64,000 bases of DNA, taken from the IMG/VR virus record IMGVR_UViG_3300025108_000001, positions 1 to 64,000 of that record. One strand, 5' to 3'. Under the pieces are notes generated by a model. The model ran no database searches, was not told the DNA's origin, and saw nothing but the letters and a program-made list of their open reading frames with translations. The translations under genes and the position numbers were made by a program. This stretch comes from a virus. This document shows, in pieces, positions 3,001 through 54,389 of this stretch (positions are counted from its first letter, which is position 1; every line of letters begins with the position of its first letter).

Positions 3001-6000
3001 TAGTGGTTGAAAATGAAGCATCATCACCTAAAGCCGCAGCCAATTCGTTTAGAGTATTTAATGCATCAGGTGATGAATCAACAAGATTTGAAATTTGAGT
3101 TCCAACATATGATACTATTGATTGTTGAGTAACAAGATGGTTTGCTGAATTAGAGGTCATAGCATCTTCATCTTTGACAGGAACAACAAAGTCTAAATTT
3201 CCATTAACATCATCATATCCTACTGTAATGAAAGTTTCTGTTCCGTCAAGCATACCCCCTACAAAATCTTCTATTTCTTCTTGAGTGCGAATAGTTTTAA
3301 GAGTATTAGCATCTATTTCCGCGAGTAATGTATCTGCTAACTTATCTTCTGTTATTGCATCATCAGCAATTCTGTCTGTTCCGAAAGTTCCGTCAGTAAT
3401 TTTATCAGCGTTTAGATTGGGAATATCTGTTGCCGCTAAGTCGGGAGTAAATGCATTACCTGCACTTAATGATAAACCGCTACCTGCTGTATAAGTAGTA
3501 TTTGTATCAGTAAATACAGCATTAGACGGAACATTCTTTCCAACAGTAAAAGTAGATACAGTATCAGCATCAATAGTCATTGCATTAATTTCACTAGCAG
3601 TTAATTGTGCAATAGGTGCAAGATTAGTTAATACAGAAGTGCTGTTAAGATAAGTTGTTAATTGAGCAACAGTCATTTCCCTGAGAGCAGAGTTAGATGT
3701 ATCATGTATTACGAATGAATCACCCGCAGCAAGAGAGTCTAGATTTGCTGCACCTGTTATATTACTAGCACCTAAAACAACAGAAGTTAGATATGTATTA
3801 GTATCTAAACTTGTGCTAAGAGTCCCATTTGTATTTGTTAATTTTAATAACCCATTAGTATTATTGTTAGGATTTGTAGTAGCAACTATTTTTTCACCAA
3901 TTGTAGTTACATCATCTAGTATGTCAAAATGAGCAGATGTCAATAACCCTGCCGCACTTGTTGTCGCGGCTGAATATGTGGTATCTTGAGTAGGGATTGT
4001 AAAATCAGCATCGGGTATAGTTACTGTTCTATTTGCAGTAGGTTCTGTAATACGAAGTGTAGTTTTTTCATCACCACTATCAGTATCATAACTGAATACT
4101 AAAGCATCTTGAACATCTATTTCTGTCTTATTTAAAGTAGTTGTTGTTCCCAGAACATTTAGATTACCTTTGATATTAATAGTGGTATCATTACCTGAAT
4201 CACCAATGTTTAAAGTATCATCACCAGTATAACTTCCTAATACTGTTGAAAGGTTTACCTTAGAAACATTTGAATCTGTATTTGTTATTGAACCGGATGC
4301 AGCACCAAGATAACCCCATTGTGCTGCTGTAATTGTAGTTGCTCCTATGTTTTGTATTGCTGTTATTTCTGATGCTGCTAAATCGTTGGTGAGAGCATAG
4401 ACTGTATCTGTATTAACACTAGAAATATCCAAAGTTTGATTAGTTCCACCCGATACAGTTGCCGTTATAGTTGAACCACTAAGAGATAATCCTGATAAAA
4501 ATTTATTCGTGTCTGTATTAACACCCGAAATATCAACAGTTAAATCTGCTAAACTTCCTGTTCTACCTATTGTTAATGTACCGCTACTAAAAGAAGCAGC
4601 ATCAACATAGTCATTACTATCAACAGAAGAACCCGCACCAATAGAGGTTCTAAATGCAGTTGCTTGATTAGTAGTTAAATCATCTGCTCTTGCTAAAAGA
4701 TTCGCTACGCTTACATTGTCAACTGCGGTATTACCTGCAAGAGCAGTACTAGATGTTGTTCCTAATGCTAAAGAACTTGTACCCGCACCAATATTACTCA
4801 ATATTGTTGTTTTGTCATCATTATCAATACTAGTAGAAGCAACCAAAGCAGCAGTTACATTTGTTGCGTTAGCAGTTAGTTTAGCAGTATTAGTAGAAAC
4901 AGCAGAAGCATCAGTATAACTAACTTTTGCAGTATTAAGACCTATCGCAGTAACGTTAGTTGCTATGTTAGTCGCATTAGTCGTTATATTACTAGACATT
5001 GTGTTTAGGTTAAGTGCAGAATTAACAGTAAGGTGTCCTACTTTCGTAGCGTCTGCTGATGGATATGTATTCTTAGCAGTATTAAGATTTAGAGCAGTAA
5101 CTAAGTTTTGAGTGCTACCACCATTAGGTATAGTAATATCCCCTGTAAACGTGGGGTCGTCAAACATAGTAGTTTTACTTTCATTAGTTACATTCCCTAA
5201 ACCTACATCAGAAGCAGTTGTACCTACATCTGAATGAGTTACACCTGCTCTAATAGCAGCAGTAGTTATATCTGAAACATTGGTTAATCCTACCATTGCT
5301 TTAGTAATACCACTTACCGTTCCTGTAAATGTAGGACTAGCGAGATTAGCCTTTAAATCTAAAGCAGTTTGTTGTGCGGTTGAAACTGGTTTAGCAGTAT
5401 CAGCAGTGTTGTTCACATTTCCTAATCCTACATCACTAGCACTAGCGGCAGTTAATATTTCAGATTGTAAAGTAGCAGCAGATTTATTATCCACGTCTCC
5501 TAATCCTACATCACTGGCCGTAGCAGCAGTAAGAGTTGCTGCTTGAATAGTTGCTTGACTAACATTAGTTACATTATCTAATCCCAATGTTGCAGTAGTT
5601 ATTTTAGAATTATCAAATATAACATCAGCATTACTAGCATTTTGTATAACTACCGCAGTTCCACCATCATTAATTTCTAATTTACCTGCGGCATTTATTC
5701 CTAATGTTAAATTATTAGAAAGTGCCTTACCTGCAATAGTTCTAGAAGTAGGGACTTTGGCGGCTAAATCAGAAGTTAAACTTGTAATTTTACTTTGTGC
5801 TAAAGTAGGTATTCTAGCAGTAGCAAAAGTTCCACTTGTTATTTTAGCAGTTGAAAGAGAAGGTATCAATGATTCAGTTACAGCACCCATTAATTCTGTT
5901 AAACTTAATTTTTTAACTGCACCCGAATCACTATTATCACGGAAAATTAAACTATCGTTTGCTATGTCTATACTAGATAAAGCAGTTAAACCACTAATAA

Positions 6001-25322: not shown

Positions 25323-26042
25323 TTAAGCAAGCCATTTAGCCCATGCAACTGCTTTACCCAATCCTTGCGCTAGACCTAGACCACTTTGAGGTGGAGTATA
25401 TGTTGGTTGACCTGTTTGCGGGTCAATCCAATAAGGATTATTCATGTTGTCATAACCACTAGGAGGAATAGGATAACCACTACCGTTGTTCATAGCCATT
25501 TGTTGTTGGTTTAGAGTATTGTTAAAATTCGTACTCATGTTACCACCTTGTATTTGATTAGGGTTTAATCCTTGAGGATTCATACCACCCATATTACCCA
25601 TAGCACCCATAGTATTAGTTTGAGGTTGCGGTTGCTGTGGAGAACTGAATCCCTGCGCCTCAAGATATTGTTGTTTAGCCATTCTTCTTTGCATAACAAC
25701 TTCACTATTAACAGCAGAAGCCAATAGTTGCTGTATATCTAAATCAATATTTTCCTGAGTTATGTTTGTGAACTCAGTTAATGCATCAGGAGTAATAGAT
25801 AAATTTCCACTAGAACTCTGACTAAATTCTAATTTAACTAACATTTGACTGACTGCTCTTTGAACAGTATCTTCAATTAATTTTTCTAGTGTACGTAAGA
25901 ATGATTCCCCATGATATTGAAAGAAATCTTCTACATGATTTTCCTGTAAAGTTAGAAGGTTGTTCATTGCTTTGAATTGGGTTTGCTGCTGTGCGCCGAT
26001 TTGTGTTGCTAATGCTCCATTACTAGTTCCGAATAATCCCAT
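25323..26042 (-). CDS. Virion-associated protein with Gln/Asn/Gly/Met-rich tail
   Basis: 239 residues. The first ~130 are helical, with an amphipathic stretch LRTLEKLIEDTVQRAVSQML. From residue ~135 the sequence turns into a low-complexity Q/N/G/M/P tail (repeated Gly-Met-Asn units), ending in a hydrophobic GLGLAQGLGKAVAWAKWLA. Unknown function. The last 15 residues could be a membrane-active helix. Neighbours are structural genes. Confidence 0.65.
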   Translation of the reverse strand: MGLFGTSNGALATQIGAQQQTQFKAMNNLLTLQENHVEDFFQYHGESFLRTLEKLIEDTVQRAVSQMLVKLEFSQSSSGNLSITPDALTEFTNITQENIDLDIQQLLASAVNSEVVMQRRMAKQQYLEAQGFSSPQQPQPQTNTMGAMGNMGGMNPQGLNPNQIQGGNMSTNFNNTLNQQQMAMNNGSGYPIPPSGYDNMNNPYWIDPQTGQPTYTPPQSGLGLAQGLGKAVAWAKWLA

Positions 26043-26045
26043 TAA

Positions 26046-26723
26046 TCACTCCCCCACTGTTTCAACATTGACAACGTTAACGCCTTCGGTTAATAGAGTT
26101 TTGACTCTTTCATTAATATTATTAGTTTCTATAATTAATCTAAATAATTCTTCTTCTTTATTTTCAATAGCATTATTGGGAGGTTTAATAGTCCAACCCA
26201 TAGCAGAAAGAGATTGCATATCGGCTTGTTTTAATGTTGTCATTGGACTTGATGTTACTAAATTAACAGGGTTCAAACTTTTAGCAGATGGAATATATGC
26301 ACTAAAAGAAAGACCGTGTTCTTCTGCTAATATTTGTTGCTCTAACATTTCGTATTGTTTATGTATTGATGCGTGTTTATTGCAGTAAGTTCCTCTCATT
26401 GGATAACCTTTTCTAACTTTGTGTAAAGGTAAAGGGGGTCTCATTGTATCGCCTGATTCCCAAACTTTCTGAGAACCACATACTACACATCTATCTTTAA
26501 TATTGTATTTAAATTTGTATGGGAACTTTAAGAAAGTCTTTTTTTCAGGCATGAGAACTTTAATTATTTCTTTTAATTTCTTTTTCGGTTTTATGTTTTT
26601 ATATTCATACATGATTACTGTACCTGCTGCTCTAGCAGAACTAAATCTATCTAAATATGGGTTAGCCCCCACATGGGCTGATTGTGCGCCGATTAAATTT
26701 GGTGGGCTATAATTCATTGTCAT
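26046..26723 (-). CDS. Zinc-binding protein next to the GTPase
   Basis: About 225 residues. A split zinc site is visible: CVVCGSQKVW followed ~30 residues later by YCNKHASIHKQ. The region between is basic (LPLHKVRKGYPMRG). The C-terminal 60 residues are helical and acidic. ATG 26723 is my choice; a GTG at 26738 overlapping the GTPase stop would add five residues. It is coupled directly to the GTPase gene, so a shared function is plausible but not shown. Confidence 0.65.
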   Translation of the reverse strand: MTMNYSPPNLIGAQSAHVGANPYLDRFSSARAAGTVIMYEYKNIKPKKKLKEIIKVLMPEKKTFLKFPYKFKYNIKDRCVVCGSQKVWESGDTMRPPLPLHKVRKGYPMRGTYCNKHASIHKQYEMLEQQILAEEHGLSFSAYIPSAKSLNPVNLVTSSPMTTLKQADMQSLSAMGWTIKPPNNAIENKEEELFRLIIETNNINERVKTLLTEGVNVVNVETVGE

Positions 26724-26737
26724 GTGATAATACCCCA

Positions 26738-27406
26738 CTAGTAGTCCTTTATCATTGTTAGGATTCCTCTATAAACCATCTCTGAATCAGATTTAGCACT
26801 TACTATATATTTATAACAAGGTATTCCCTTATCATTTAACTTCTGCATACCATTTCTAAAGGATTCAAATATTGGATGTTTTTCTATTGTCTCATAATCA
26901 TATTTGTCTTTCCACAAATCATGTTTATTAGCCCAAAGACCAACTGCTACGGGGTAATCATGTAACTTTTTCTTTTTCTTTTTTCCACCAACATTCCAAT
27001 AAGGACTACAAATAGTATCTACTAAAAAAGTCCAACATAATTGTTGTTCTATATCATAGTGTTTATCCATATGCCTATCATCTAACATAAAAATAATATA
27101 TTTAACTTTTCGAGTTCTCATATCTTCTACCCACTCTTGCCAAAATACAGTTTCACCACCAACATCAGCAGTTTTAACAGTATGAGCATCACCGTCTAAT
27201 TTTACAAATTTTCTAGATGCTCGATGAAGCCCGACAGTTCTATCTGTAATAGATGGAACTTCACCTCTAGTTCTTAGTTGATGATGTAATGTAGTTTTAC
27301 CTGCTTTACTAGCACCATATACCCCAAAGGGTATAGAATGTAATCTCTGATAGACTTTGTTTATACCCTCAACTAACAGAATAGCGAAGCCCGCCATTAC
27401 CGACAT
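26738..27406 (-). CDS. Arf/Ras-superfamily small GTPase
   Basis: 222 residues with all five G-boxes in order: P-loop GASKAGKT (31-38), switch I threonine in DRTVGL (about 57), DVGGE (81-85, the Arf/SR-beta type DxGG), NKHD (160-163) and SAK (203-205). It should bind and hydrolyse GTP. The N-terminus has a hydrophobic stretch (GFAILLVEG) that could contact a membrane. A lysine-rich insert lies before the NKxD motif. GGTGTGAT precedes ATG 27406. The two genes just upstream encode membrane proteins and the gene downstream a zinc protein, all inside the capsid/tail cluster. Such GTPases are rare in viruses of prokaryotes; its role is unknown. Confidence 0.85.
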   Translation of the reverse strand: MSVMAGFAILLVEGINKVYQRLHSIPFGVYGASKAGKTTLHHQLRTRGEVPSITDRTVGLHRASRKFVKLDGDAHTVKTADVGGETVFWQEWVEDMRTRKVKYIIFMLDDRHMDKHYDIEQQLCWTFLVDTICSPYWNVGGKKKKKKLHDYPVAVGLWANKHDLWKDKYDYETIEKHPIFESFRNGMQKLNDKGIPCYKYIVSAKSDSEMVYRGILTMIKDY

Positions 27407-27412
27407 TGTTTA

Positions 27413-27637
27413 TCACACCAAATGATGAAATAAATTAACTATTCCGTTCCAAGTTGAAGAATATAAATTATAGCCAAATAAAGATATAGCATGACCTACA
27501 AAAAAACTAGTAACACAAGCAATCCCACTCCAAAGAAAAAACCTCGCTCTTAAGAACCATATATCAGCAGAATGCGCTCTTTGTAAATCATAGGCTAATG
27601 TGGATTCATCGAATCCCATTAGGATTTCTCCTACCAT
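27413..27637 (-). CDS. Small membrane protein upstream of GTPase
   Basis: 74 residues with one clear transmembrane segment (FFLWSGIACVTSFFVGHAI, about 33-51) flanked by charged Arg residues on the N-terminal side, giving an N-in orientation by the positive-inside rule. AGGTGATTAT lies before ATG 27637. Seven bases separate it from the GTPase gene, so the two are probably co-translated and may act together at the host or virion membrane (inference). Confidence 0.7.
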   Translation of the reverse strand: MVGEILMGFDESTLAYDLQRAHSADIWFLRARFFLWSGIACVTSFFVGHAISLFGYNLYSSTWNGIVNLFHHLV

Positions 27638-27645
27638 ATAATCAC

Positions 27646-28071
27646 CTACTCATTAAAGCCTGTTAAAAATGTTGGGCTAATAGTATTCGCATCAAATTGT
27701 TGTTGTGGTTGTTGCATTACTGGAAGATTAGAGTCCCCATAAAATGGCTGTCCGAATGATTGATTAAAACTCCTAAGTGATTCTCTAACTCTCTTACGAT
27801 TTTCTTCATCTCTTGCTTTCCTATTCCAATAAGCATCTATTTTTCTTTGTAATAAAAAATCTTCTATAATATCATTTAACATTAAATCAAACAATGCTTT
27901 CAATAACATTATCCCTCCTACTGTGCATATTCCAAACAATACTGCATGGGATAATCCGGTGTATGGAAAGTCAATTCCATATATAGTGTAAAAATAAATG
28001 TTAGTGCCACTAATAGCACCAACGAAAAGTATAGTCATTACTAATCTTGTATCTGTATCAATACTAGGCAT
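27646..28071 (-). CDS. Two-span membrane protein with charged tail
   Basis: 141 residues. Two hydrophobic segments (LVMTILFVGAISGTNIYFY and LSHAVLFGICTVGGIMLL) are followed by a strongly charged helix (DYWNRKARDEENRKRV-like region near residues 85-105) and a Gln/Phe/Asn tail. GGAGTTGAT precedes ATG 28071. Placed with another membrane protein and the GTPase, suggesting a small membrane module within the late operon. No family recognised. Confidence 0.7.
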   Translation of the reverse strand: MPSIDTDTRLVMTILFVGAISGTNIYFYTIYGIDFPYTGLSHAVLFGICTVGGIMLLKALFDLMLNDIIEDFLLQRKIDAYWNRKARDEENRKRVRESLRSFNQSFGQPFYGDSNLPVMQQPQQQFDANTISPTFLTGFNE

Positions 28072-28075
28072 AATA

Positions 28076-28351
28076 TCAACTCCAAGAACAGGAGTATGAA
28101 CCGCCTGAACCAGTTAGAATTGCTGTTATTCCTGTTCCCATTGACCTATTGTGCATATCAAATTCGATTGTAGAATTAGCAGTTAGAATTAATCTAGCAA
28201 CCTCATCTGCCGAACCGACACTAGTAGTATTATGGTCGTATATTTTTAATGTAGCAGTTCCAGTAGAACAAAAATGAATACTTGTTAATTTGCATCTACC
28301 ATCATTTACTACTGCACTTGCAGTTTTTACAGGACTACCTGCGGAAACCAT
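28076..28351 (-). CDS. Putative capsid decoration / head-fibre-like protein
   Basis: 91 residues, all-beta pattern: CKLTSIHFCSTGTATLKIYD, a turn, ARLILTANSTIEFDMHN, then GTGITAILTGSGG. This single small beta-sandwich layout is what I see in phage decoration or head-fibre subunits. It overlaps the stop of the preceding gene by TAATG and sits just after the capsid gene. Assignment by pattern and place only. Confidence 0.5.
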   Translation of the reverse strand: MVSAGSPVKTASAVVNDGRCKLTSIHFCSTGTATLKIYDHNTTSVGSADEVARLILTANSTIEFDMHNRSMGTGITAILTGSGGSYSCSWS

Positions 28352-28891: not shown

Positions 28892-30295
28892 TTAAGCACT
28901 CTTTAGGTTGGTAATTTTACCTTGTCCCTTGAAGAAAGAACAGCAAGTTTCTCCCATAGTGCGGTACATTCCTTGATTTCCAAGTTTACCAACACCGAAT
29001 GGGTTTCCACTAGTAATACCATCTTCGAAGTATTGTGTAGGTTTCATTACAGATAGCCATAGATGGTCTGTATCTAGAACTAATATATCACTAATTCTGT
29101 TAGATGTGGACTTACCTGTTGACGGCATATCTTTAGCAGGGATAATTGGTATGTCATAGTATGTTGCAACTCTGAAACCAACTTCTTGACCCTTAACACC
29201 ACGAACACCATTATGGGAAGGAACAATTTCTTTCCTATCCATAAATCTCTCTTGTGATTGTAGTAAATCAGAGATTTTCTGTATGGTATCATATCCTGTA
29301 ATGATAACTTTAGGGTTTCCGCCGTTAGTACGGATTCTTCTAATCATATCATTAAGAATACTTAGTGTTAGAACTCTACATTCACCGGATGTATAACCTG
29401 CACCAAAATCAACTTCTGCATCTAGGAAAGATGGAACACCAGTGTAGGTGTATGCTCCACTTCCGCCTGATGTGTTAACAGTAACAGTTCTAGTTGAACC
29501 AAAGATAGTGGTAGCATCAGCAAGTTGTGCTGCTGTACCGTTATTTGTTTGGTTGTGGTAGAATACGTCATCATCAGCCATAGTTGCAAGTTCAACCGCA
29601 GATGAAACTATCTTCATTAAAGAAGTGTAGTTCTTCTCAATACCTGTTGTACCGTTTTCTGAGTATTTCTCAAGAGGCATAACTAACATTTTGCTCTGAA
29701 CTTCTGCGTGTAGTTTACCCATGTCTTCTCTAACGATAGCACGAATATCACCAACACCATCATCAATTGCAGCCATTTCCATTCCTAGTTCTGAGAACTC
29801 GAATAGATGTGCAATAGTCTTAGGGCTAACATATAGTTTAGTATATTCAGGAGCGATTGCTCTAAATCCGTCTGCACCACCTAATGTTGCGTTTTCTCCG
29901 ACACCACCAATTTGGTCTGCTCTAGGAGTTGCTGCATCTGCTGATGAAATACTAGCGGTAACTGCATTAGTACCTGTACCGAATGCTGCATCACTACCAC
30001 CAATAGGTCGTGATTTCAAAACTCTCCAACCGCTTGATGTGTAAGGTCTCTTAGCAAGCATTGCTAGAGGGTTTACTTCTTGGTTTAATACAGACCAAAC
30101 TTTCTGTCCGTATAGTAGGTTGTACAAATCACCTAGACCTGCTGCACCCGTAAATGCATTAGCACTAGTATCGTGAGGAGTACCGAAACCACCTACAACT
30201 CCACCTGCTTTAAGCAAGGCATTGCCGCTTCCTGTTCCGCCATATCCGTATGTTGCTGCTTCTAAATCTTTCATTGTTTTAATATATCCACTCAT
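28892..30295 (-). CDS. Major capsid protein (HK97 fold)
   Basis: 467 residues. N-terminal ~60 residues are Gly/Ala-rich (delta-like region), followed by features of the HK97 fold: LYVSPKTIAHLFEFSELGMEMAA leading into a long spine helix (VREDMGKLHAEVQSKML), the central EMA-like sheet with NGGNPKVIITGYDTIQKISDLLQ and VATYYDIPIIPAKDM, and a closing DILVLDTDHLWLSVMKPTQYF. It lies immediately after the protease/scaffold gene, the normal order. The base composition is less AT-rich and codons more regular than the surroundings, as for highly expressed genes. An Arg-Lys turn near FMDRKEIVPSHN is also seen. Confident by pattern and context. Confidence 0.85.
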   Translation of the reverse strand: MSGYIKTMKDLEAATYGYGGTGSGNALLKAGGVVGGFGTPHDTSANAFTGAAGLGDLYNLLYGQKVWSVLNQEVNPLAMLAKRPYTSSGWRVLKSRPIGGSDAAFGTGTNAVTASISSADAATPRADQIGGVGENATLGGADGFRAIAPEYTKLYVSPKTIAHLFEFSELGMEMAAIDDGVGDIRAIVREDMGKLHAEVQSKMLVMPLEKYSENGTTGIEKNYTSLMKIVSSAVELATMADDDVFYHNQTNNGTAAQLADATTIFGSTRTVTVNTSGGSGAYTYTGVPSFLDAEVDFGAGYTSGECRVLTLSILNDMIRRIRTNGGNPKVIITGYDTIQKISDLLQSQERFMDRKEIVPSHNGVRGVKGQEVGFRVATYYDIPIIPAKDMPSTGKSTSNRISDILVLDTDHLWLSVMKPTQYFEDGITSGNPFGVGKLGNQGMYRTMGETCCSFFKGQGKITNLKSA

Positions 30296-30307
30296 AATTT
30301 CACTTCC

Positions 30308-31519
30308 TTAATTTCCCCTCACAAGAGAATGTACGTCATCCCAAGTCATATTGGCTGCTGCCTCTAAACTTGTAGGTATTCCTTCCGGTAATGCCATTGA
30401 CATTTCCACGCTTTTGCGAATTGTTGCGTCTTTCTCTGATAGAGATTTTCGTAGTAGAGCAAACTCTTCTTTTAGTGCTGCTACATCTGTTCTAGCATCG
30501 TATGATGCGGATTCTGCTGCTGATTTCTTAACAGAAAGTTCTTCTGAAAGTCTTGCTTCAAATTGCTTAGAAAGATTATCGTATGCAATTTTTTCCATCT
30601 GCTCTGCTTTGAATTGTGCATATGCTTTCTCAACATTGTCTGCACTTAGGTTAAGAGTACTAAAGTCCGAATCATCTAACCCATTACTCTTTAGTGTTGC
30701 AGGTGCGCTAGTTGGTTTACCACCACTAACTACAAGTTCCCCTGCTTCGTAGTCTCTTGTTGAATCTTCATCAAGAGATTTTGCTTCTTCCTCTTCTTCT
30801 TCATCATCCTTACGCATAGACATCATAGTTTCAACATCTTCTTCTTCTTCTTCATCATCCCTAGTTGACATACTATATTTGGCATTCTTCGTTACTTCGT
30901 CATATTTTCCTTCCTCTCCGAGTCCGTTAACTTGTTTCATCAAGTCATTCAACTCTTCGAGTGCTTTCTCCAATTTTTCACTCATTGTTTTATCCTCCAT
31001 TTTTAAAATGTCGAATTTTGCTTCGGGATTAATCCCTTTTTCACAGATAGTTACTTCATGTAATTCTAACCTGTCTATCTCATTATACTCACCAAACTCA
31101 TCTGATGTTTTTTGTTTCTTAGAAATCGCCTGACCTCCAATACTAAAAGAACGAAGCGTTCCTTTTCTAATACTCCTTGAAATTTCTTTTGCCTTTTCTA
31201 TGTCATCTCTTAATTTAATAACAACATAGAAACCTACGTCATCTACTCCTGTTTTATGAAGAGTTCCATTAGTATCTCTATACTTTTCTATGACTTCTCC
31301 GACCTGAACATTAGAATGATTAGACATAACATTTCTATATTTCTTTTCAGACATATAGTTTTTTGCCGCATCATCTAAAGCACTTAATGTAATTAAATCA
31401 TTTTGTTTATCTACTATTTCTATCGAAGCGTAGCCACCAATAATCAAATCATCGGATTTAAGAATAGTAAACTCATGTTCTCTATCTGCTTTGAATAAAA
31501 GAGAAGGTTGCATAAGCAT
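30308..31519 (-). CDS. Prohead protease (S78-like) fused to scaffold-like domain
   Basis: 403 residues. The protease part (1-170) shows catalytic His68 in NVMSNHSN and Ser126 in LRSFSIGG, followed by LELHEVTICEKGINPEAKF, as in the HK97-type S78 family. Residues ~180-390 are an acidic then coiled-coil region (long Glu/Asp runs near 220-245, then KAYAQFKAEQMEKIAYD and ALKEEFALLRKSL), a scaffold layout. The last residues are NMTWDDVHSLVRGN, very close to the end of the 34732-34962 product and related to the W-motif of the tagged proteins. The gene directly precedes the capsid gene. Function: matures the procapsid by cutting scaffold and perhaps tagged cargo. Confidence 0.85.
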   Translation of the reverse strand: MLMQPSLLFKADREHEFTILKSDDLIIGGYASIEIVDKQNDLITLSALDDAAKNYMSEKKYRNVMSNHSNVQVGEVIEKYRDTNGTLHKTGVDDVGFYVVIKLRDDIEKAKEISRSIRKGTLRSFSIGGQAISKKQKTSDEFGEYNEIDRLELHEVTICEKGINPEAKFDILKMEDKTMSEKLEKALEELNDLMKQVNGLGEEGKYDEVTKNAKYSMSTRDDEEEEEDVETMMSMRKDDEEEEEEAKSLDEDSTRDYEAGELVVSGGKPTSAPATLKSNGLDDSDFSTLNLSADNVEKAYAQFKAEQMEKIAYDNLSKQFEARLSEELSVKKSAAESASYDARTDVAALKEEFALLRKSLSEKDATIRKSVEMSMALPEGIPTSLEAAANMTWDDVHSLVRGN

Positions 31520-31559: not shown

Positions 31560-34181
31560 CTATTTTTCACTAGGAAGTGTTAAATTAGAATATTTATCTT
31601 CTTCAATATTCCAAATATCTATACTATCTTTATCTTTTAACATAACTTGTTTTTTTCCAGTCCATGCTACCCATCTTTTTTTCTCATTTATAGGAACAAC
31701 TCTAAGATGTAGTCTAGTTTCAAATTTATCTCCTTCTAATTTATATTCGTGATAACCGTCTTTTTGTATTCCTAAAATAATATCACCCTTATCTATAATT
31801 TTACCTGCATCTATTTTTTCTGCTACGATAGCAGGGTATTTTACGGATTTGCCGAATAAGTTGTATATATCATCTGTATCCTCTATATCTATCAACCAAG
31901 CAAATCTGCTTTTTTTATAATCTATAATTAAATTAATATTACCATCATCTTGTCTATTTATAGTAAATTTACCTTTTCTCGAATCTTCTTTTTGAATAAT
32001 ATTTTCATTATCTTCATCATTTTCATTATCCTTTTCTATAAATGATTCATCAACAACAAAGACTTGAGGATTTTCTTTATCTAAAAATTCAACAGAATCT
32101 TGTTGCTTTAACCATCCTGTTAATTTGTTAGGATTTTGTTTAATCCAACCCGCCCACGATTTATTGTGCTTGGTTTGCACAAATTCAATTATTTCTTCTG
32201 ATGTTAATTTTTCATTTGGACTATTTGCTATTTCATCCTTTATTGCTATTCTTAATTGAGACCTGTTACTTTTTATTAATTTCGCTATTTCTTCTTTCCA
32301 CAAATCAATATTATAAAGAGCGTTTTTCTCCATTAAATTATCGCCATCAAAACCATAGATAGTAAAGCCGTCTAAATCTTCTTTTAATATAATTTCAGCA
32401 GTACCGTGTATATCATCTGTAATGTAATATCCCTTTTTAATTTTTTTAGGTTTAAGTAAATTAGATTCCAACCCACTCATAATTCTAAATGGGACAGGTA
32501 CAGCAGTACCAATTAAACTATTAATTGCACTTGATAATGATTTTTTACTCTTAGATGCTAATTTTTCTAATGTAGCGATATTATCTGATTCTGTTACTTC
32601 CGGTATTTCTATTACTTTGGCAGAATATAGGCTAAATTTATCGTTCCTTTTAGTTACTTCATCGACCTTAACCCTAACAATAGTACCTATGTCAACATTT
32701 ATTTTTGTATTAAGAGCCTTACCAACTTCTAAATAGGCCTTATCTTCATAATCAACAGTAGCATAGTTCCTTGCAACTTCGGCTGTAACTGGCCCGATTC
32801 CCATAGTATAAGAATGTAAATTACTTTTTGTCTTTCTGTCGTTTAATACTACTACATCTAAGTCAACAAATTTTTTCCATTTAACCCACTTAGGATTTTT
32901 TCTATTTCCTATGTAATAGGTAGATTCAATATCCTTGATAACTACTCCTTCTGACGCAGGTAATTTCATAATATTCTTTGAATAGTTTTCAACTTCCTTT
33001 TTAGAATCTGCTATTCTAGTATCTTTTTTAGAAGGAAACGCCATGAGTTCGGAAGAATGTTGTGAGTATTGATAAAGTAAAATATTAATTCTTTCTCTTA
33101 GTGGGTCATCAGTTATATTTTTCCCTTCATGCACCATAATATCAAAAACGTGTGCCTTCAATGTTCCTTTTGTTTTCTTATGAAACACATGAGTAATAGT
33201 GTCTGCTCTATGAAGGGGTTCATCATCTAAAAATAACATTAATTCAGCATCTAATATACAATCCCCGAATTGTTTTTTCTCCATATGTTTTACCTGTTCG
33301 GGACATTTAGAAGTAATATCTTTTTCATTAAAAGAATAAATCTTAACTTTACCATTGAACTTATGTATCTGTATTCTCATACCATCATATTTTTCTTGAA
33401 CAACAAACTCTCCGGTTAGCCCTTTAATATCATCCAAATCATCTATCTCGAAAATACGATACATTGGTTTATTAGGTTTAATAAAATCTATTTCCGCTTT
33501 CTGTTCTTGTGATTTAGATATATCTAATTCTAATAAGGCATCCCAATCCTCATCGTCATATTTTTCTAAATAAATATCTTCTAATTTTTTGAATGCCTGT
33601 TTACACTTAGTTTCTATTCTTTCAGTATTCTCATCTGAACTACCATAATGTTCTATAATATAAATAGGCACATCTTTAGGTTCTAAATCTAAGCCCATAT
33701 ATCCTTGAGTAATCTCATCCGGTTTCAGCCCATGTGCCTTCCAAGATTTTTCGGGTATTGTATTGGTATGGGAACGAACCGCATAATGAATAAATGATAA
33801 TAAAATAGATTCGTCCTTTAAGAGTATATTAATTACATCATCTCCTAATTGTTTAGAAAACGGGTCACTAATTTTGTCTGACTTGAATCTAAGTTCTTTA
33901 ACACTATCATAAATCTCTTTCGCTTGTCTAGAATTGGGGTCGTATGCTTCATTAGAAAAAGCAGTTTTTTCCTTTAAGTAAGTTTTTAATTCTCTAGAAA
34001 AATCATCTAATGAATCGAATTGGTCTCTAACTTCTTTAACAGTCTGTTTCCATTTAGCCCCATATTCAGAAGGACTTTCTTTTGCAGAAAGGTATGAATA
34101 TCTAACTCTTTCAAAAAAATCTAAAACCCTTTTAGTTAAAGGAGTCCTTTTTTTTTCAAATAGAAGTCCTGTTTGCGGCAT
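31560..34181 (-). CDS. ATP-dependent DNA ligase with novel flanking domains
   Basis: 873 residues. The nucleotidyltransferase core is in the middle: motif I EKYDGMR with the AMP-accepting Lys264, motif III DAELM (311-315), motif IV EGVVIKD (411-417) and motif V WVKWKKF (431-437), followed by an OB-like region (DLDVVVLNDRKTKSN...). The order and motifs are those of archaeal/viral ATP-dependent ligases. The first ~235 residues do not look like the usual DNA-binding domain and are unrecognised, and ~350 residues follow the OB region (including an acidic linker near 725-745). It lies between protease and tagged small proteins, unusual for a replication enzyme, which suggests it acts on packaged DNA or is carried in the virion (inference). 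Confidence 0.85.
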   Translation of the reverse strand: MPQTGLLFEKKRTPLTKRVLDFFERVRYSYLSAKESPSEYGAKWKQTVKEVRDQFDSLDDFSRELKTYLKEKTAFSNEAYDPNSRQAKEIYDSVKELRFKSDKISDPFSKQLGDDVINILLKDESILLSFIHYAVRSHTNTIPEKSWKAHGLKPDEITQGYMGLDLEPKDVPIYIIEHYGSSDENTERIETKCKQAFKKLEDIYLEKYDDEDWDALLELDISKSQEQKAEIDFIKPNKPMYRIFEIDDLDDIKGLTGEFVVQEKYDGMRIQIHKFNGKVKIYSFNEKDITSKCPEQVKHMEKKQFGDCILDAELMLFLDDEPLHRADTITHVFHKKTKGTLKAHVFDIMVHEGKNITDDPLRERINILLYQYSQHSSELMAFPSKKDTRIADSKKEVENYSKNIMKLPASEGVVIKDIESTYYIGNRKNPKWVKWKKFVDLDVVVLNDRKTKSNLHSYTMGIGPVTAEVARNYATVDYEDKAYLEVGKALNTKINVDIGTIVRVKVDEVTKRNDKFSLYSAKVIEIPEVTESDNIATLEKLASKSKKSLSSAINSLIGTAVPVPFRIMSGLESNLLKPKKIKKGYYITDDIHGTAEIILKEDLDGFTIYGFDGDNLMEKNALYNIDLWKEEIAKLIKSNRSQLRIAIKDEIANSPNEKLTSEEIIEFVQTKHNKSWAGWIKQNPNKLTGWLKQQDSVEFLDKENPQVFVVDESFIEKDNENDEDNENIIQKEDSRKGKFTINRQDDGNINLIIDYKKSRFAWLIDIEDTDDIYNLFGKSVKYPAIVAEKIDAGKIIDKGDIILGIQKDGYHEYKLEGDKFETRLHLRVVPINEKKRWVAWTGKKQVMLKDKDSIDIWNIEEDKYSNLTLPSEK

Positions 34182-34731: not shown

Positions 34732-34962
34732 TTATCTCTCCATTGTAGTTACTAATTCGTGTATGTCTTCCCAAGCCATACTCTTTTTGATAGTATTATC
34801 CATTGGAATATTATTACTATCCATTCTAGGAGAAGGGGAATTAACCACAACTAATCCTGATTTCATAAGTAGGTTATCTTTGTGATAAACTGCTTCCTCC
34901 AAGTGTTTCACCTTATTCACTAATTCTTTTAATAGCATTAACATTTCGTTATCATCACTCAT
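34732..34962 (-). CDS. Small scaffold-like protein with C-terminal W-motif
   Basis: 76 residues. N-terminal coiled coil (MLMLLKELVNKVKHLEEAVYH), a short linker, and the C-terminus MAWEDIHELVTTMER. The pattern M-A/T-W-E/D-D-I/V-H-x-L-V is shared with the end of the prohead protease/scaffold. This suggests the same partner is bound, most simply the inner capsid surface, and that this may be a second scaffold or assembly factor (inference). Confidence 0.7.
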   Translation of the reverse strand: MSDDNEMLMLLKELVNKVKHLEEAVYHKDNLLMKSGLVVVNSPSPRMDSNNIPMDNTIKKSMAWEDIHELVTTMER

Positions 34963-35185: not shown

Positions 35186-35860
35186 CTAAATCTCTCCTTT
35201 AAGGTCTTTACCATATTTTTCTCGCCCGTACATACTAGGAGGGGGATAAAATCCTTCATCTGCCATTTCCTCTCTCTCTCTCCTACTGAGAGAATAATAC
35301 CAATTTGCATATCTCTCTCTATCGTCTTCGTCATCATTTCCGCTAGGGTCTTTAGATGACCCTTCTCCTATTTTTAAAGATTCTAAAACAGTATCAGTAA
35401 ATACTTCTTCATCTTCTAAAACTCTAGGAATCCTAAATATCGGCTTATCTCCCATTTCTGTATATGCACCTTCTGAATAGATAACAAAATACAGAATCTT
35501 CTCAATACCTTTGTATTTTACTTTTGTAGCGACACCGCCCTTTACATCGTGTTCGTATAGGCCATCACCATCAGGATTATCTTCAAAGTTATATTTTTCA
35601 TCTATTAATTTAGCAAACGTAATGTTTATCCCTAATTTAGACATTGCTTGTGCAATATCTTCTAGTTCTTTACCTAGTTTTGTTTGATAAGTACTTTCAT
35701 AGGGACTGGTTCGTTTTAAAGACTCATGTAATTTACGCGCAAATGGGATTCTCATATTCATTGCTACTTCTTTATAATTATCAGTAAATCCGTCTTTGTC
35801 AATTCTAACGCCATTAGGTTTTTTAGTAAAATCTCTTTTTAATATATCTTCCCAACTCAT
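35186..35860 (-). CDS. W-motif tagged protein, 224 residues
   Basis: Starts MSWEDILKRDF with GGGGGATT upstream and an ATGA overlap with the previous stop. After the tag comes a helical segment with AFARKLHESLKRT-like and GKELEDIAQAMSKLGI patterns, a beta region (KGGVATKVKYKGIEKILYFVIYSEG), and an acidic tail with DDEDDRERYANWYYSLSRRERE. Domain not recognised. Part of the tagged set upstream of the capsid genes. Confidence 0.75.
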   Translation of the reverse strand: MSWEDILKRDFTKKPNGVRIDKDGFTDNYKEVAMNMRIPFARKLHESLKRTSPYESTYQTKLGKELEDIAQAMSKLGINITFAKLIDEKYNFEDNPDGDGLYEHDVKGGVATKVKYKGIEKILYFVIYSEGAYTEMGDKPIFRIPRVLEDEEVFTDTVLESLKIGEGSSKDPSGNDDEDDRERYANWYYSLSRREREEMADEGFYPPPSMYGREKYGKDLKGEI

Positions 35861-39350: not shown

Positions 39351-41009
39351 TTAACCAACTCTCCTTTCTGTTCTTTTGTCATTATTTTGATTCCCTGCAT
39401 CCTTTGGTAATCCTGAAAATCTTTTATCGGGAGCATTAAACATACTAGGCTTGTTTCTTTTTTTAGGTGGTTCTGATTTAACTTTTTCGGGAACACCCGC
39501 TTCGGCCATTGTCGGTTTATTTCCTTCCGCCATCATTTGACCTAACTGACTAGCATCAATATCCGTACCTGCGTAAGGGTCAAGTTCAAACTCATCTTCT
39601 TTACCCTGTTGTTTTTCTTTTTCTTCCATAGGTTTATCATAAGTAAACCTGCCTTCTGAATCCATCTTTACTTCAAATCCTAAGTTCTTTATTGCCCCTG
39701 CAATATTAACTTCCATTTCTCTTAGTCTTAATTTAGCAATTTCATCTTCTTCTTCCGAAGGTGGAAGTTTTAATTCCCAATCTGTAATACCAAATTGATT
39801 AGTAATAAAGGGAAACACATAATTATTCCAAGTCGTTTGAGCCATCTCTACTGCGCGATTAGTAACAAGTATTTGCATACCTTCGTTATTTAATCCACCG
39901 CCCGCAGAAGCGTCATTCATAAACACTTTACTTACACCATAAAAGGCAGAAATTCTATCTCGTAAATCATCTTTTACTGCAACATATTCCATTTCTTTTA
40001 GGCTATCCATGAATCTAACCCATTCAACAGAACCCTTTCCGGTTTCCGATTCAATTCCCATTACCGGAATAAAGTGAGGGTCTTGTTCCATCTTTTCTTT
40101 AACACCTCGCCAAAACGATTTCATTGACTCCATATTTCTTGTCTGAACAGCCAACAATCCCTTCGGCATTCTTGCCTTAGTATATGATGAGTTAACATAA
40201 TTATCCATTGCAATTAATGTAGTAACATTATTCCACAAAGTAAGAATAGGAGACATACCATATAATCTAGAAGGGGAATATTTGCTAAAGTGAACTACTT
40301 CCCCTTTGATGAAATATTGTTCTTCTCCGTTAACACGATTAACATAATGAACAGGATACAATTCTGAATTACAGGTCTCACAAGTTTCACTCGGATGTTC
40401 ATGTATTCTGTCTCTATGGCGCAGACAAACATAACCCCCTTTTCCTCTTTCGCCAAGTTCATTAGAATAAATGTGCATAGTAACAGGGTCGCCTCTAAAC
40501 ACTTCTTTTATTCGATGCATTCTAACCTTAGAATTATTGTCTAAATAATATTCCTTTACTGTAACTAAGTAAGCATCATCCATTATATTCAAATCATCTT
40601 CTAATTCTTTCAATACATCTATGAACATTTGGTCTGCATTATTTACATATCCTTCTAAAAAGTTTTTAGCATACACTAATTGTTTTGAATCCGGTTTAAC
40701 TAAATCAGTAGATTCACAATCTGTGCATTGTAGGACGGGATTAGTATGTTCTTTTCCACAAGAATTACATTTTAATGCAAATTTTTCCTCCCACAAATAC
40801 CCTCTTCTGAAAACCTCTTGTTTAAGTTGGGTAATACAAGTCCTAACAATAGTTGACTGTTGCACTATATGATAAATAATAGGACTAGTTAACATATAGG
40901 AATTATCTCTTTCTTGTATTCCTAAATTGTAAACCGTTCTATCAGCAGGTTTAGGTGTAGTATTTCTAAATAGATTACTAAATGAAAATTTTCTTTTCTC
41001 TTCTACCAT
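39351..41009 (-). CDS. Portal protein with two zinc-ribbon insertions
   Basis: 552 residues. Portal-type features: an N-terminal helix region (IIYHIVQQSTIVRTCITQLKQEVF), the VVHFSKYSPSRLYGMSPILTLWNNV motif of HK97/SPP1-like portals, and a helical crown region (LRDRISAFYGVSKVFMNDAS). Unusually it contains two Cys-rich insertions: CNSCGKEHTN..CTDC (about 82-98) and CLRHRDR..CETC (about 195-217), which look like zinc sites. Acidic, low-complexity C-terminus. It lies next to the large terminase, with the LAGLIDADG ORF between. It forms the ring at the packaging vertex. Confidence 0.85.
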   Translation of the reverse strand: MVEEKRKFSFSNLFRNTTPKPADRTVYNLGIQERDNSYMLTSPIIYHIVQQSTIVRTCITQLKQEVFRRGYLWEEKFALKCNSCGKEHTNPVLQCTDCESTDLVKPDSKQLVYAKNFLEGYVNNADQMFIDVLKELEDDLNIMDDAYLVTVKEYYLDNNSKVRMHRIKEVFRGDPVTMHIYSNELGERGKGGYVCLRHRDRIHEHPSETCETCNSELYPVHYVNRVNGEEQYFIKGEVVHFSKYSPSRLYGMSPILTLWNNVTTLIAMDNYVNSSYTKARMPKGLLAVQTRNMESMKSFWRGVKEKMEQDPHFIPVMGIESETGKGSVEWVRFMDSLKEMEYVAVKDDLRDRISAFYGVSKVFMNDASAGGGLNNEGMQILVTNRAVEMAQTTWNNYVFPFITNQFGITDWELKLPPSEEEDEIAKLRLREMEVNIAGAIKNLGFEVKMDSEGRFTYDKPMEEKEKQQGKEDEFELDPYAGTDIDASQLGQMMAEGNKPTMAEAGVPEKVKSEPPKKRNKPSMFNAPDKRFSGLPKDAGNQNNDKRTERRVG

Positions 41010-42241
41010 TAAGCAATCACTCCTTCTAATTTATCCATCTCAAACATTTTACACTTATCGTGTAATTTAAAAACAGTAGTAATATCAATACCATCCTTAG
41101 AAAAATCATAACCAACATGGTCTTTATGATTTTCATATTTCATTAATTGAAATAATTCAGTTTTTCTTTCATCATACCAATCTGCTTTTTTATAGGATTT
41201 TTTCATTCGTAATAACTCCAATAATATATCTGCGTTTTTCCCTTTCATTCTAAAATGTGGCCTACATTTAGTTAATAATTCGACTACATCATCATGGGAA
41301 TAAAAATTTAATCTGTTAACAGGTCTAGTGTCTTGCGGAGATTTTTGGTCTAAATGTAATCTACCGCAACCTAATGATTTATGCATCTCTAACATAAACG
41401 CCTTTCCTCTTTCTCCTGTTGCTACCAAACCTACTCTTGGATTGAACTTTTTATCCATAGTAATATAGCCATCCGAATCTATGAAAGCCGCAGTATAAGC
41501 ATAAATATCTTTTTTAATATCATCACTAAACTTATAGAAAGCACCATTGACATTAGTAACATTGCAAGATATAGCCATCTTGGAAATTATACTTGGAGTA
41601 GTTTTATGAAATAAATTCTTAGGTAGTCTTTCATGTATTTGCCTTGCTGAAATTCCTGATTCTTCGCTAACTAAAGAAACAATGTTGTGTTTAATAATTT
41701 CTTTTTTATTAATTGATTTCAGGTGTTTTTTAATTAGATGTTTAAACTCTCTCTTAGAAGATGTCATCTCTTTGGATAGTTTAGCAAAATTACTATTATA
41801 ACCGATTTCATTTTTATCTATTTTTGCTTCCCAATATTTACACAAAACATCTATTATTTTTCTTCTTGTATTTTCATCATCAACATATGATAGTTTGATT
41901 AGTTGGTCTTCGCTACAAGTCATATCTTGTACTTGAGATTTATATTTACTTAACCAATAAATATTATCAATACTATTTTCTAAATGATTAGCGTAACCGT
42001 CAATTAAATTATCAATTGATTTTGACATTTGTATTCTATCTTCTCCTTTCAGAGTTCTTCTATACTTACGCATTTTTTTAATCATCTTAGGGATATCTGT
42101 TCCTTCGACTTCATATTTTTTAAGTTTATATTCAAGATGTTTTCTTGCATCTGTTAAAGATAAATCAAACTCTTTAGCAAATGTTTTTTCCAATTGAGTG
42201 TGGTCTGATATAGTAGAATCAACTAACCAACTTCTCTTCAA
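41009..42241 (-). CDS. LAGLIDADG-like homing endonuclease between terminase and portal
   Basis: 410 residues from TTG 42241; the frame stays open upstream into the terminase 3' end, and a strong GGAGGTGA at 42346-42339 sits correctly for an ATT start at 42334 (31 more codons), so the true start is uncertain. Residues ~250-400 contain AYTAAFIDSDGYI (LAGLIDADG motif with the usual acidic residue), then VNRLNFYSHDDVVELLTKCRPHFR as in intron- or intein-type homing enzymes. The N-terminal 250 residues are helical and may hold a DNA-binding domain. Only one LAGLIDADG copy is clear, so it may work as a dimer. Inserted as a free-standing gene rather than in an intron, as the flanking genes are intact. 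Confidence 0.7.
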   Translation of the reverse strand: MKRSWLVDSTISDHTQLEKTFAKEFDLSLTDARKHLEYKLKKYEVEGTDIPKMIKKMRKYRRTLKGEDRIQMSKSIDNLIDGYANHLENSIDNIYWLSKYKSQVQDMTCSEDQLIKLSYVDDENTRRKIIDVLCKYWEAKIDKNEIGYNSNFAKLSKEMTSSKREFKHLIKKHLKSINKKEIIKHNIVSLVSEESGISARQIHERLPKNLFHKTTPSIISKMAISCNVTNVNGAFYKFSDDIKKDIYAYTAAFIDSDGYITMDKKFNPRVGLVATGERGKAFMLEMHKSLGCGRLHLDQKSPQDTRPVNRLNFYSHDDVVELLTKCRPHFRMKGKNADILLELLRMKKSYKKADWYDERKTELFQLMKYENHKDHVGYDFSKDGIDITTVFKLHDKCKMFEMDKLEGVIA

Positions 42242-49318: not shown

Positions 49319-49864
49319 TTAGACATCTTCTCTTCTGTCAAATGCCGTATGTTGGTCTGCATTTCTTCTTTGCTTCCAACCACCTTCGACCCGTTTTGTT
49401 TTAGGTCGTCTTAAATTAGATAAAGCACTAGAGCCGCTAAGATTTCTTGTTAAAGGCGGTAATGCAAAACTAAATTTTTCATTTTTAATTGACCCTGCAC
49501 TATATTCAATTGTAATAATTGCATCTTCTTCGGGATAAGCGTCATCGAACAAAGTATTAGCCACATCCCCTCTATCTCGATTTTTTTGTGGCTTAACTAC
49601 TACATCGTGAATTTTTATTCTAAGGCTACTTGGAAGACCCTTATATCCTCCATAATGTTGAATCACGCTAACTAATTGATTATCAGGAAATTGATTCCTT
49701 CTTAGTTTGTATAAATCACTTTTACTCATCATTAATATTCCGTTAGTTAAAGCACTTTCAATAGTAATCTTTAATTTGCCTTCACTCATTTCTTCAGGTG
49801 CGTGTTTCCTACCTAACATTCTTGCTTCTCTTAAATCAACTTTTAATATTTCTTTCCAACTCAT
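49319..49864 (-). CDS. W-motif tagged protein, 181 residues
   Basis: Start ATG 49864 overlaps the previous stop as ATGA and has GAGGGG upstream; the longer frame in front of it lies in the neighbour gene. Begins MSWKEILKVDLREAR. Middle part basic and mixed (IESALTNGILMMSKSDLYKLRRN), with a beta pair (IIHDVVVKPQKN-like), C-terminus Arg/Lys-rich. No family recognised. Confidence 0.72.
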   Translation of the reverse strand: MSWKEILKVDLREARMLGRKHAPEEMSEGKLKITIESALTNGILMMSKSDLYKLRRNQFPDNQLVSVIQHYGGYKGLPSSLRIKIHDVVVKPQKNRDRGDVANTLFDDAYPEEDAIITIEYSAGSIKNEKFSFALPPLTRNLSGSSALSNLRRPKTKRVEGGWKQRRNADQHTAFDRREDV

Positions 49865-50247
49865 TGTATTAACCCCTCTAATTTCATTTTTTCCCAAAAC
49901 CCTGATGTATGGGGTTGTATTTTAGACACGGTTGGTAATACATTCGTGTCTTCCAATGAATGCAATTCCTCAATAAACTCCTTAAGATATTCTCTTGCCT
50001 TGCCTTTATTTTGTATATTATCTTTAATAGTAAACACATGAATATCCCAAAAATAGTTACTTGGATTTTCGTCTTGATGATAAACTGCTTCACCCCTTGC
50101 CTTTTTATCATTAGATTCCCATGTTAATTTATCATCCCATTCAGGCGTTAAATCTGACAAGTATTGAAATTGTTTGTCCTTTCTTGGTTTATATGGATTA
50201 CTACCCATATACCAAGTAGGAGATTTCAAAATATTCATCCAACTCAT
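49861..50247 (-). CDS. W-motif tagged GNAT-type acetyltransferase
   Basis: 128 residues beginning MSWMNILKSPTWYMG. The second half reads like a small GNAT: WDIHVFTIKDNIQNKGKAR, giving the Q-x-x-G-x-A acetyl-CoA loop, then a helix YLKEFIEELHSL, a strand, and GFWEKMKLEGLI as the closing motif. Compact phage GNATs of this size are known. If the tag marks virion cargo, this would be a packaged acetyltransferase. Substrate unknown. Confidence 0.7.
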   Translation of the reverse strand: MSWMNILKSPTWYMGSNPYKPRKDKQFQYLSDLTPEWDDKLTWESNDKKARGEAVYHQDENPSNYFWDIHVFTIKDNIQNKGKAREYLKEFIEELHSLEDTNVLPTVSKIQPHTSGFWEKMKLEGLIQ

Positions 50248-50262
50248 TGTAATCTCTCCTTC

Positions 50263-50571
50263 TCAATCTTTTCTTTCTAAAACAATATACCAATCAAAAA
50301 CTGTTCCATCTTCTTTTGTGGCGGCAGGTTCTAATTGTTGAATAGAAAATCCGCCATTTTGTTCTAAGAAATCCCTCAAATTACTCGTTCTTATATCTGA
50401 TGACAGAACATCTTCCTTACTTGAATAAACTTGTGCTAATACTTCCTTATCATCAACAATATAACTTCTAAGCCCACTGTAACTTGTATTTGGAAAAGCA
50501 ACTTTACTTTTAAAATCCTTTCTTTTTCCATGACTTATAAAATCATTTTTCAATATATTTTTCCAACTCAT
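50263..50571 (-). CDS. W-motif tagged protein, unknown
   Basis: 102 residues beginning MSWKNILKNDFISHGKRK. The remainder shows alternate strands and helices (RSYIVDDKEVLAQVYSSKEDV, SNLRDFLEQNGGFSI) ending in TVFDWYIVLERKD, which might be a small alpha/beta domain. Stop overlaps the preceding gene. No function assigned. Confidence 0.7.
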   Translation of the reverse strand: MSWKNILKNDFISHGKRKDFKSKVAFPNTSYSGLRSYIVDDKEVLAQVYSSKEDVLSSDIRTSNLRDFLEQNGGFSIQQLEPAATKEDGTVFDWYIVLERKD

Positions 50572-51224
50572 TGTAACTTACTCTCCATTTGTTTTCTAAC
50601 ATCTAGCCAAACTTCAGGGTGATTTTGTGCTAACACTTCTTTAATAATTTGCATCTGATGAACAATAATTGTATCTTGTCTCTTGTGAACTAACTTACCT
50701 TTGAACTCCATCAAGTATCTCAAACTCTCACGGACTTCCTTTGCTAACTTAGTTAATGAATCTATATGTTTTGGGTCTAACTCATCTGATTGGAAAAGTA
50801 AATCTAATTTAGTATCTAGTCTAGAAATGTTAGCACTTAAAGTATCAACTTCATTTATCTCTCGCATTGCTATCATGTTTGCTGCTGATTGTTGAACTAA
50901 AGGTTGAACGTGATTTTTCATATGGCGAACTACTTGGTCGGCAGTGCAGTTTACCATTGACCCTACTTCTTCAGGAGTAATTAAAGAATCGTGTATTTGT
51001 AATTCGATTGCACTTCTATGTTCACTAGTGCAAACATTACATTTTGGATTAGAAGAATTAACATATCCTTCCATGTGATTTCTTTGATGCCTTGAAGCAG
51101 TGCCACTAGGCCAATCCATTTGAATATCTAACTCATCAGCAGTAATTATCATGTTATCTAATTCATCTTCAAGGCTCTGCCTATTATCTAAATTACAAAA
51201 AACACAACGTTTTCTAGTTACCAA
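50568..51224 (-). CDS. Double zinc-finger/HTH DNA-binding protein, candidate small terminase
   Basis: 218 residues with an internal duplication: CVFCNLDNRQSLEDELDN...SRHQRNHM and CNVCTSEHRSAIELQIHD...VRHMKNHV. Each unit is CxxC, a helix, then a helix-turn-helix ending HxxxH, a pattern used by small DNA-binding phage proteins. Residues ~130-218 are coiled-coil helices that could make a ring or oligomer (ISRLDTKLDLLF, VRESLRYLMEFKGKL). Its place upstream of the terminase and the DNA-binding plus oligomer layout favour the small terminase subunit; it has no W-motif. A transcription regulator is the alternative. Confidence 0.6.
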   Translation of the reverse strand: MVTRKRCVFCNLDNRQSLEDELDNMIITADELDIQMDWPSGTASRHQRNHMEGYVNSSNPKCNVCTSEHRSAIELQIHDSLITPEEVGSMVNCTADQVVRHMKNHVQPLVQQSAANMIAMREINEVDTLSANISRLDTKLDLLFQSDELDPKHIDSLTKLAKEVRESLRYLMEFKGKLVHKRQDTIIVHQMQIIKEVLAQNHPEVWLDVRKQMESKLQ

Positions 51225-54193: not shown

Positions 54194-54389
54194 GATAACC
54201 ACCACCTGCTTTTTTGTAAGCGGCTGCAAGCATTTGTGCTTTTCTTGCAGACCATTGACCTGCCGCACCACCTTTACTACCTGCTTTAATTCTTTGAAAT
54301 TGTTTTTTTCTCATCGTGGGTTTAGTATAATTACCTGCTGAATTAACGGTAGATTTCTTTTTCTTCTTAAGAACTTCAAACCAACTCAT
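54186..54389 (-). CDS. W-motif tagged basic protein with WSARKAQ core
   Basis: 67 residues from ATG 54389, six bases after GGGGTGA. Begins MSWFEVLKKKKK, then SKGGAAGQWSARKAQMLAAA and YKKAGGGY, a short motif widespread in marine and giant viruses (I recall it as DUF5872-like). Function unknown. Overlaps the zinc-ribbon gene by 14 bases. Confidence 0.72.
   Translation of the reverse strand: MSWFEVLKKKKKSTVNSAGNYTKPTMRKKQFQRIKAGSKGGAAGQWSARKAQMLAAAYKKAGGGYRD

Follow-up and report, generated by a model that had tools for sequence, protein, structure and literature searches.

In magroviruses, a Ras/Arf-type small GTPase, two membrane proteins and a zinc protein form a fixed module, and the GTPase matches the major capsid protein (MCP) in its degree of conservation. 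The module is part of a block of five genes that sits between the MCP and the head-tail connector in the late operon. It was identified in the window, by which we mean the whole stretch of 64,000 nucleotides analysed here (positions 1 to 64,000 of the IMG/VR record IMGVR_UViG_3300025108_000001), and the GTPase is encoded in at least 378 stretches of IMG/VR.

Composition and conservation of the GTPase block

The source record is a virus contig of 99,250 bases, in which positions 1-5440 are repeated exactly at 93811-99250. Because the last 5,440 bases repeat the first 5,440, the unique genome length is about 93.8 kb, and the terminal repeat reflects either a circularly permuted genome or an assembly overlap. 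Magrovirales are tailed viruses of marine Poseidoniales with a published genome anatomy (PMC10768690; PMC12999244). In agreement with this description (PMC10768690), the record encodes a Druskaviridae-like MCP, TFIIB (TFB), replication factor C (RFC-S), a family-B DNA polymerase in two pieces, a UvrD-type SF1 helicase and an ATP-dependent DNA ligase, has two opposed gene clusters and falls into the size range of ~90-100 kb. Among GenBank phages, the only tblastn relatives of the MCP were viruses of archaea, namely Druskaviridae and two archaeal tailed-virus genomes. Judged by gene content, we assign the source of the window to the Magrovirales; the assignment of Poseidoniales as hosts rests on its kinship to published magroviruses.

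The late operon, in which all features described in the following lie on the minus strand, carries the genes for the prohead protease (30308..31519) and the HK97-fold MCP (28892..30295) upstream of the block, which bears out the capsid cluster named in the original prediction. A small capsid-cluster protein, p91 (28076..28351), is encoded between the MCP and the block. The block starts with TM141 (27646..28071, 141 aa), which has two predicted TM helices, seen as two hydrophobic peaks, and a basic, probably coiled C-terminal tail. It is followed after 8 bp by TM74 (27413..27637, 74 aa), which consists of a conserved N-terminal segment (DESTLAYDLQRAHSADIWFLRARF) and one predicted TM helix (one peak), and after another 6 bp by the GTPase (26738..27406, 222 aa). 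The next gene encodes the zinc protein (26046..26723), whose conserved start is the ATG at 26723 (225 aa) and not the GTG at 26738 that gives the listed 230 aa; its ligands C-x2-C...C-x2-H are invariant in relatives, with the spacing C-x2-C-x31-C-x2-H. The fifth member, p239 (25323..26042), combines a helical N-terminal part with a Q/N/M-rich linker. Thus, the two short membrane proteins directly upstream of the GTPase and the zinc protein downstream of it are present as predicted.

In 80 loci found by means of the GTPase, order and strand of MCP, small capsid-cluster genes, TM141, TM74, GTPase, zinc protein and p239 were the same wherever the contig reached. To counter sampling bias, we drew a second sample of 80 loci with a capsid protein as the query, taken from the relative that was the most diverged at that stage. 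Of these loci, 56 extended 3.6 kb or more past the MCP and were testable: the GTPase was present in all of them, without a single loss, and the full block from TM141 to p239 in 55/56, with no other order seen. The sole locus without p239 (L280) lies on a contig that ends 3.9 kb after the MCP. The row of genes had been described as translation-coupled. While the gene order is indeed kept, strict coupling is not conserved, as some relatives have inserted genes between TM74, GTPase and zinc protein, which leave the order unaffected. These insertions are unrelated short genes, nearly all of which start with M(L)W-x-x-[IV]LK, and the idea of a second GTPase or an MglB-like regulator among them was rejected on these grounds.

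The median pairwise identity in 124 loci was 0.68 for the GTPase and 0.66 for the MCP, followed by p239 (0.60), the protease (0.59), the zinc protein (0.57) and the TM proteins (0.51). Ten further near-genome-length records contain one GTPase copy each. Two non-identical copies were found in one record of 184,733 bases (L313), about twice the usual magrovirus genome, which probably represents either a fusion of two related genomes or a concatemer.

The most informative relative is L408, an 8.8-kb contig recovered by the genome search from a mis-binned Maricaulis genome that also holds two magrovirus GTPase contigs. In order, its genes code for proteins of 210 aa (two TM helices) and 90 aa (one TM helix), a GTPase of 237 aa, two proteins of 65 aa and 327 aa, the latter bearing the signature M[RK]GTYCxxH, and a Q/N-rich protein. 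The L408 GTPase shares 33% identity with that of L244 (E 1e-29), is homologous to the main GTPase family at an HH probability of 99.8% and retains G1, G3 (DMGGQ) and G4 (ANKAD), with ATR as G5; the zinc protein matches its magrovirus counterpart at E 1.1e-5. Outside the block, L408 also encodes a small homologue of the window protein at 50568-51224 (E 3e-36), which supports a placement of L408 as a putative distant magrovirus or sister lineage. The two TM proteins are alike in topology and order in L408 and the main lineage, but have no significant sequence similarity. That they diverged beyond recognition and yet keep their place beside the GTPase is our strongest indication that the function of the GTPase includes work at membranes. 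Hence, the TM pair and the zinc protein accompany the GTPase in essentially every relative, including a lineage at 33% GTPase identity, which answers the question of co-occurrence raised along with the prediction.

Sequence, fold and family of the GTPase

The open reading frame and all five GTPase boxes, including DVGG, were confirmed. G1 corresponds to the P-loop G31-ASKA-GKTT39 (27290..27316), G2 to Thr57 of switch I (T-x-G; 27236..27238), G3 to D81-VGG-E85 (27152..27166), G4 to N160-K-H-D163 within A-N-K-H-D (26918..26929) and G5 to S203-A-K205 (26792..26800). Scoring in 149 and later in 214 distinct homologues revealed zero variation at G31, G36, K37, T38, T39, T57, G59, D81, G83 and G84 as well as at N160, K161, D163, S203, A204 and K205. 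No catalytic residue is lost in relatives; only position 85, which is equivalent to Gln61 of Ras and Gln71 of Arf1, varies between Glu (171/214) and Gln (43/214), with no third residue. In a maximum-likelihood tree of 149 sequences, Q85 forms a single inner group. The split is therefore one change, and since it is only one, the E85/Q85 switch is uninformative as a marker of a co-varying partner. At the level of codons, synonymous change far exceeds replacement (dN/dS 0.016 against L006 and 0.08 against L013), and the protein sequence is under strong purifying selection. From the conserved boxes we infer that the gene product is an active small GTPase that would bind and hydrolyse GTP.

Two further elements may be relevant for membrane contact or docking. 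A predicted N-terminal helix before the first strand (residues 3-22; 27341..27400) appears mildly amphipathic, with a moderate hydrophobic moment of 0.31-0.45, and is a candidate membrane contact. Between helix 3 and strand 5 there is a Lys-rich loop (KKKKKK; 26966..26983), and a run of 3-8 K/R is found at this site in 214/214 homologues.

An AlphaFold2 model built with 40 family members (mean pLDDT 68, pTM 0.70, switch regions <50) has the extra N-terminal helix 3-22 (pLDDT ~61) followed by the Ras-type order of strands and helices. A Foldseek search with this model against the PDB yielded 1448 matches at E<=0.001, with small GTPases and G-alpha at the top of those listed. The highest TM-scores among the matches listed were obtained for Arf1 (9c59; 0.61 by query and 0.73 by target), and Asgard Arf/ArfR1 (8oum) reached 0.59 and 0.73, respectively; in this list, the Arfs ranked above Rab and Ras. 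The AlphaFold model of the zinc protein, which served as negative control, had no Foldseek fold match. Taken together, the invariant core residues and the Ras-superfamily topology indicate that the set of five boxes is not due to chance.

All Pfam matches of the window GTPase were below the cut-off: the best was SR-beta (PF09439; 22.1 bits, cut-off 25, E 1.1e-4), followed by Roc (18.7 bits), Arf (PF00025; 17.4 bits, cut-off 22.3) and MMR_HSR1 (16.5 bits). No family member passed the cut-off for Arf PF00025. TIGR00231 (small_GTP) was matched by 28/28 members tested, with the window GTPase sub-threshold there too. In sequence profiles, K-Ras and Arf-like proteins rank equally and weakly against the GTPase, and the alignable identity to known GTPases is <20%. 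The weak Pfam score does not reflect decay, as the G-box residues never vary in the 214 homologues.

With G1-G5 intact and a Ras-like alpha/beta fold, the protein belongs to the Ras superfamily (TRAFAC). It shares GKTT, T-x-G, DxGG[Q/E], ANKxDL and a predicted N-terminal helix, together with the best TM-scores, with Arf/Sar/Arl and the Asgard ArfR proteins (8oum, 9c59). Unlike Arf, however, it stays below the Pfam cut-off, has an interswitch (T57 to D81) of 24 residues compared to 19 in the aligned Asgard Arf (8oun), SAK as G5, mostly Glu at the position of the catalytic Gln, and an N-terminal MSV in place of the myristoylation Gly. The label 'Arf-like' refers to a resemblance in motifs and fold; membership in the Arf family is not established. 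SR-beta, the best Pfam match and likewise a membrane-linked GTPase, differs as well, since the magrovirus protein has neither a TM peak or helix of its own nor an SR-alpha partner, in addition to its sub-threshold score. The sub-threshold Pfam scores and the longer interswitch led us to file the GTPase as a new, Arf-like family within the Ras superfamily and not as an Arf.

A possible GTP switch at the archaeal membrane

Membrane-organising small GTPases are characteristic of eukaryotes, and the study of their archaeal counterparts has only recently begun. In Haloferax volcanii, the formation of vesicles is driven by ArvA, an Arf-like GTPase with an N-terminal amphipathic helix; a zinc-ribbon protein encoded in the same operon has been proposed to be its GAP (PMC10927574). 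The magrovirus block resembles the ArvA/ArvB/ArvC system in its euryarchaeal setting, an N-terminal helix that possibly touches the membrane and an operon partner with a zinc motif. Moreover, the closest Pfam match of ArvA is Arf and its annotation MMR_HSR1, both of which also give sub-threshold matches with the magrovirus GTPase. The differences are that the magrovirus block is viral, has two TM proteins upstream and encodes a zinc protein that does not match Pfam DUF2072. An ArvB-type domain (PF09846) was not found in the virus record. Pfam and Foldseek detected no homology of the zinc protein to a GAP or to ArvC (DUF2072), and its C-x2-C-x31-C-x2-H spacing is unlike that of an ArfGAP, so a function as ArfGAP was rejected.

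By analogy to ArvA, the GTPase could well be a membrane-docked GTP switch for assembly or egress, which is the reading that we favour over its rivals, at evenly balanced chances. According to this model, the virus would make the GTPase late, together with the capsid proteins, while TM141 and TM74 would be inserted into the cell membrane of the archaeon. Docking of the GTP form at this membrane would involve the N-terminal helix, the Lys-rich loop and the TM proteins, and GTP binding and hydrolysis would time a membrane step, either the handling of proheads or virions at the membrane or a local remodelling like that by ArvA in Haloferax. The zinc protein and p239 may serve as regulator and as effector or adaptor. 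The invariant G boxes, the purifying selection, the conservation at the level of the MCP, the presence in 56/56 loci and of the block in 55/56, the same layout in L408, the Arf-like fold, the position between MCP and connector and the precedent of ArvA support a switch of this kind, for which GTP hydrolysis, membrane docking, partnership and the role in assembly or egress are all inferred. An egress role is opposed by the fact that tailed viruses normally leave the cell by lysis and that magroviruses are thought to be lytic. More tentative is the far-reaching version of the model, which we regard as possible though rather doubtful: a tailed prokaryotic virus would possess its own Ras/Arf-type machine, made up of the two membrane proteins, the GTPase, a zinc regulator and a Q/N-rich effector, and would use it to reshape the membrane of the archaeon, either for assembly or for a release without lysis.

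The position of the block and its capsid-like conservation would also fit an entry module, in which the packaged GTPase, zinc and Q/N-rich proteins are ejected with the TM pair and form a channel or remodel the membrane at DNA entry. In tailed viruses, components of the virion are often encoded between the capsid and connector genes, and p239 has a virion-like, Q/N/M-rich composition. We nevertheless consider this unlikely: within the window, the N-terminal MSWxxILK peptide that marks many other late proteins is present on 0/5 members of the block, both integral membrane proteins would need packaging, and a small GTPase is not among the known ejection proteins.

A comparison with the Druskaviridae bears on a second alternative, to which we assign a similarly small chance, namely an assembly checkpoint without remodelling, in which the GTPase would be a switch that helps, like a chaperone, to complete heads or to join them to tails, and the TM proteins would do no more than anchor assembly sites. 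Its operon position between MCP/p91 and the connector would suit such a role. The late operon of HCTV-1 and HVTV-1 is similar in its related MCP, the general order and gp116, which follows the capsid genes and is a short protein with a predicted TM segment. The haloarchaeal relative HCTV-1 runs from gp116 to the connector-like gp117 without a GTPase block, which would likewise suit the checkpoint. In contrast to magroviruses, no GTPase was found in the Druskaviridae records searched, despite the related capsids; gp116 is not detectably homologous to TM141 or TM74, and the block proteins had no significant homology to the late genes of HCTV-1 and vir519. Since druskaviruses with related capsids assemble without it, the GTPase is not a general requirement for heads, and the constant upstream neighbours of the GTPase are membrane proteins, which also speaks against a mere checkpoint. 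Finally, it is very improbable that the GTPase mimics a small GTPase of the host or titrates it (e.g. of vesicle or archaellum/cell-surface pathways) and acts on host physiology and not on virions, for although the fold resembles cellular Arf/Ras and giant viruses are known to carry host-like small GTPases, host-modifying auxiliary genes are usually patchy, whereas this gene is in every testable locus and constrained like the capsid.

Returning to the membrane-docked switch, the capsid-level conservation and the inseparable TM pair in abundant ocean archaeal viruses suggest that membrane switching is central to building or release, and the question of how marine archaeal tailed viruses exit cells becomes testable on five named genes. 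If true, GTP-switched membrane work by a tailed prokaryotic virus would be a kind of system not described before. Furthermore, the magrovirus proteins add an independent family of prokaryotic GTPases that can help to trace how Arf/Ras switches originated.

Origin of the gene and further features of the late operon

The predicted rarity in prokaryotic viruses agrees with our searches: tblastn against GenBank phages gave no match to the window GTPase (E<=0.1), the L408 GTPase (E<=10) or the L408 zinc protein, and PHROGs contained no real match to the window GTPase. PADLOC returned nothing, so the GTPase does not belong to the known defence genes. With the capsid proteins of vir519 and HCTV-1 as queries, a search for sister lineages revealed nothing new beyond druskaviruses. 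Among predicted viral structures (BFVD), the best 50 Foldseek matches to the GTPase carried giant-virus names except for one unnamed entry, and no tailed virus of prokaryotes was named among them. Like these Ras/Rab proteins, the magrovirus GTPase is a virus-encoded member of the Ras superfamily; however, giant viruses infect eukaryotes and their GTPases have clear cellular Ras/Rab/Ran kin, whereas the magrovirus proteins are a separate family tied to the capsid genes of archaeal tailed viruses. No GTPase is mentioned in the PMC papers that refer to magroviruses or in Nishimura 2017.

In 84,980 genomes of bacteria and archaea, a scan that reaches close relatives only gave a single apparently cellular match, in a Maricaulis bin. 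It was rejected as a mis-binned virus contig because the contig bears the MCP, the protease and the whole block. At least three virus contigs in this public Maricaulis MAG (L101, L408, L409; G014 C77, C111, C57) carry the GTPase block in its usual or distant form, which marks the bin as contaminated. The proposed capture of a cellular archaeal GTPase thus found no positive evidence, and a recent capture from the host is unlikely. Since the genome scan gave only a virus contig and druskaviruses lack the gene, we take it to be old in these viruses and ancestral at least to the large magrovirus clade and L408.

Several observations concern other late genes. Sixteen late-strand ORFs between 34409 and 55606 (minus strand) share the start M[S/N/T]W-x-x-[I/V/T]-[L/I/V]-K on bodies that look unrelated, and a 17th match is loose; examples are 35186-35860, 49861-50247, 50263-50571, 53544-53912 and 54376-54885 (all minus strand). 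The related start M(L)W-x-x-[I/V]-L-K is found on genes inserted into the block in L255, L262, L266, L271, L273, L275, L276, L278, L291, L301, L303, L252, L319 and L314. The shared peptide may be a capsid-targeting tag, and a comparable tag is carried by the internal proteins of T4. The C-termini of the protease (30308-31519; MTWDDVHSLVRGN) and of a 76-aa protein (34732-34962, minus strand; MAWEDIHELV) resemble the peptide and are possible docking partners or mimics of it.

The late head operon also encodes an ATP-dependent DNA ligase (31560-34181, minus strand; 873 aa, PF01068) as a neighbour of the prohead protease; the replication cluster holds another ligase-like ORF (L082:8071-9615). Between the portal and terminase genes, a 410-aa ORF (41009-42241, minus strand) looks by eye like a LAGLIDADG homing endonuclease.
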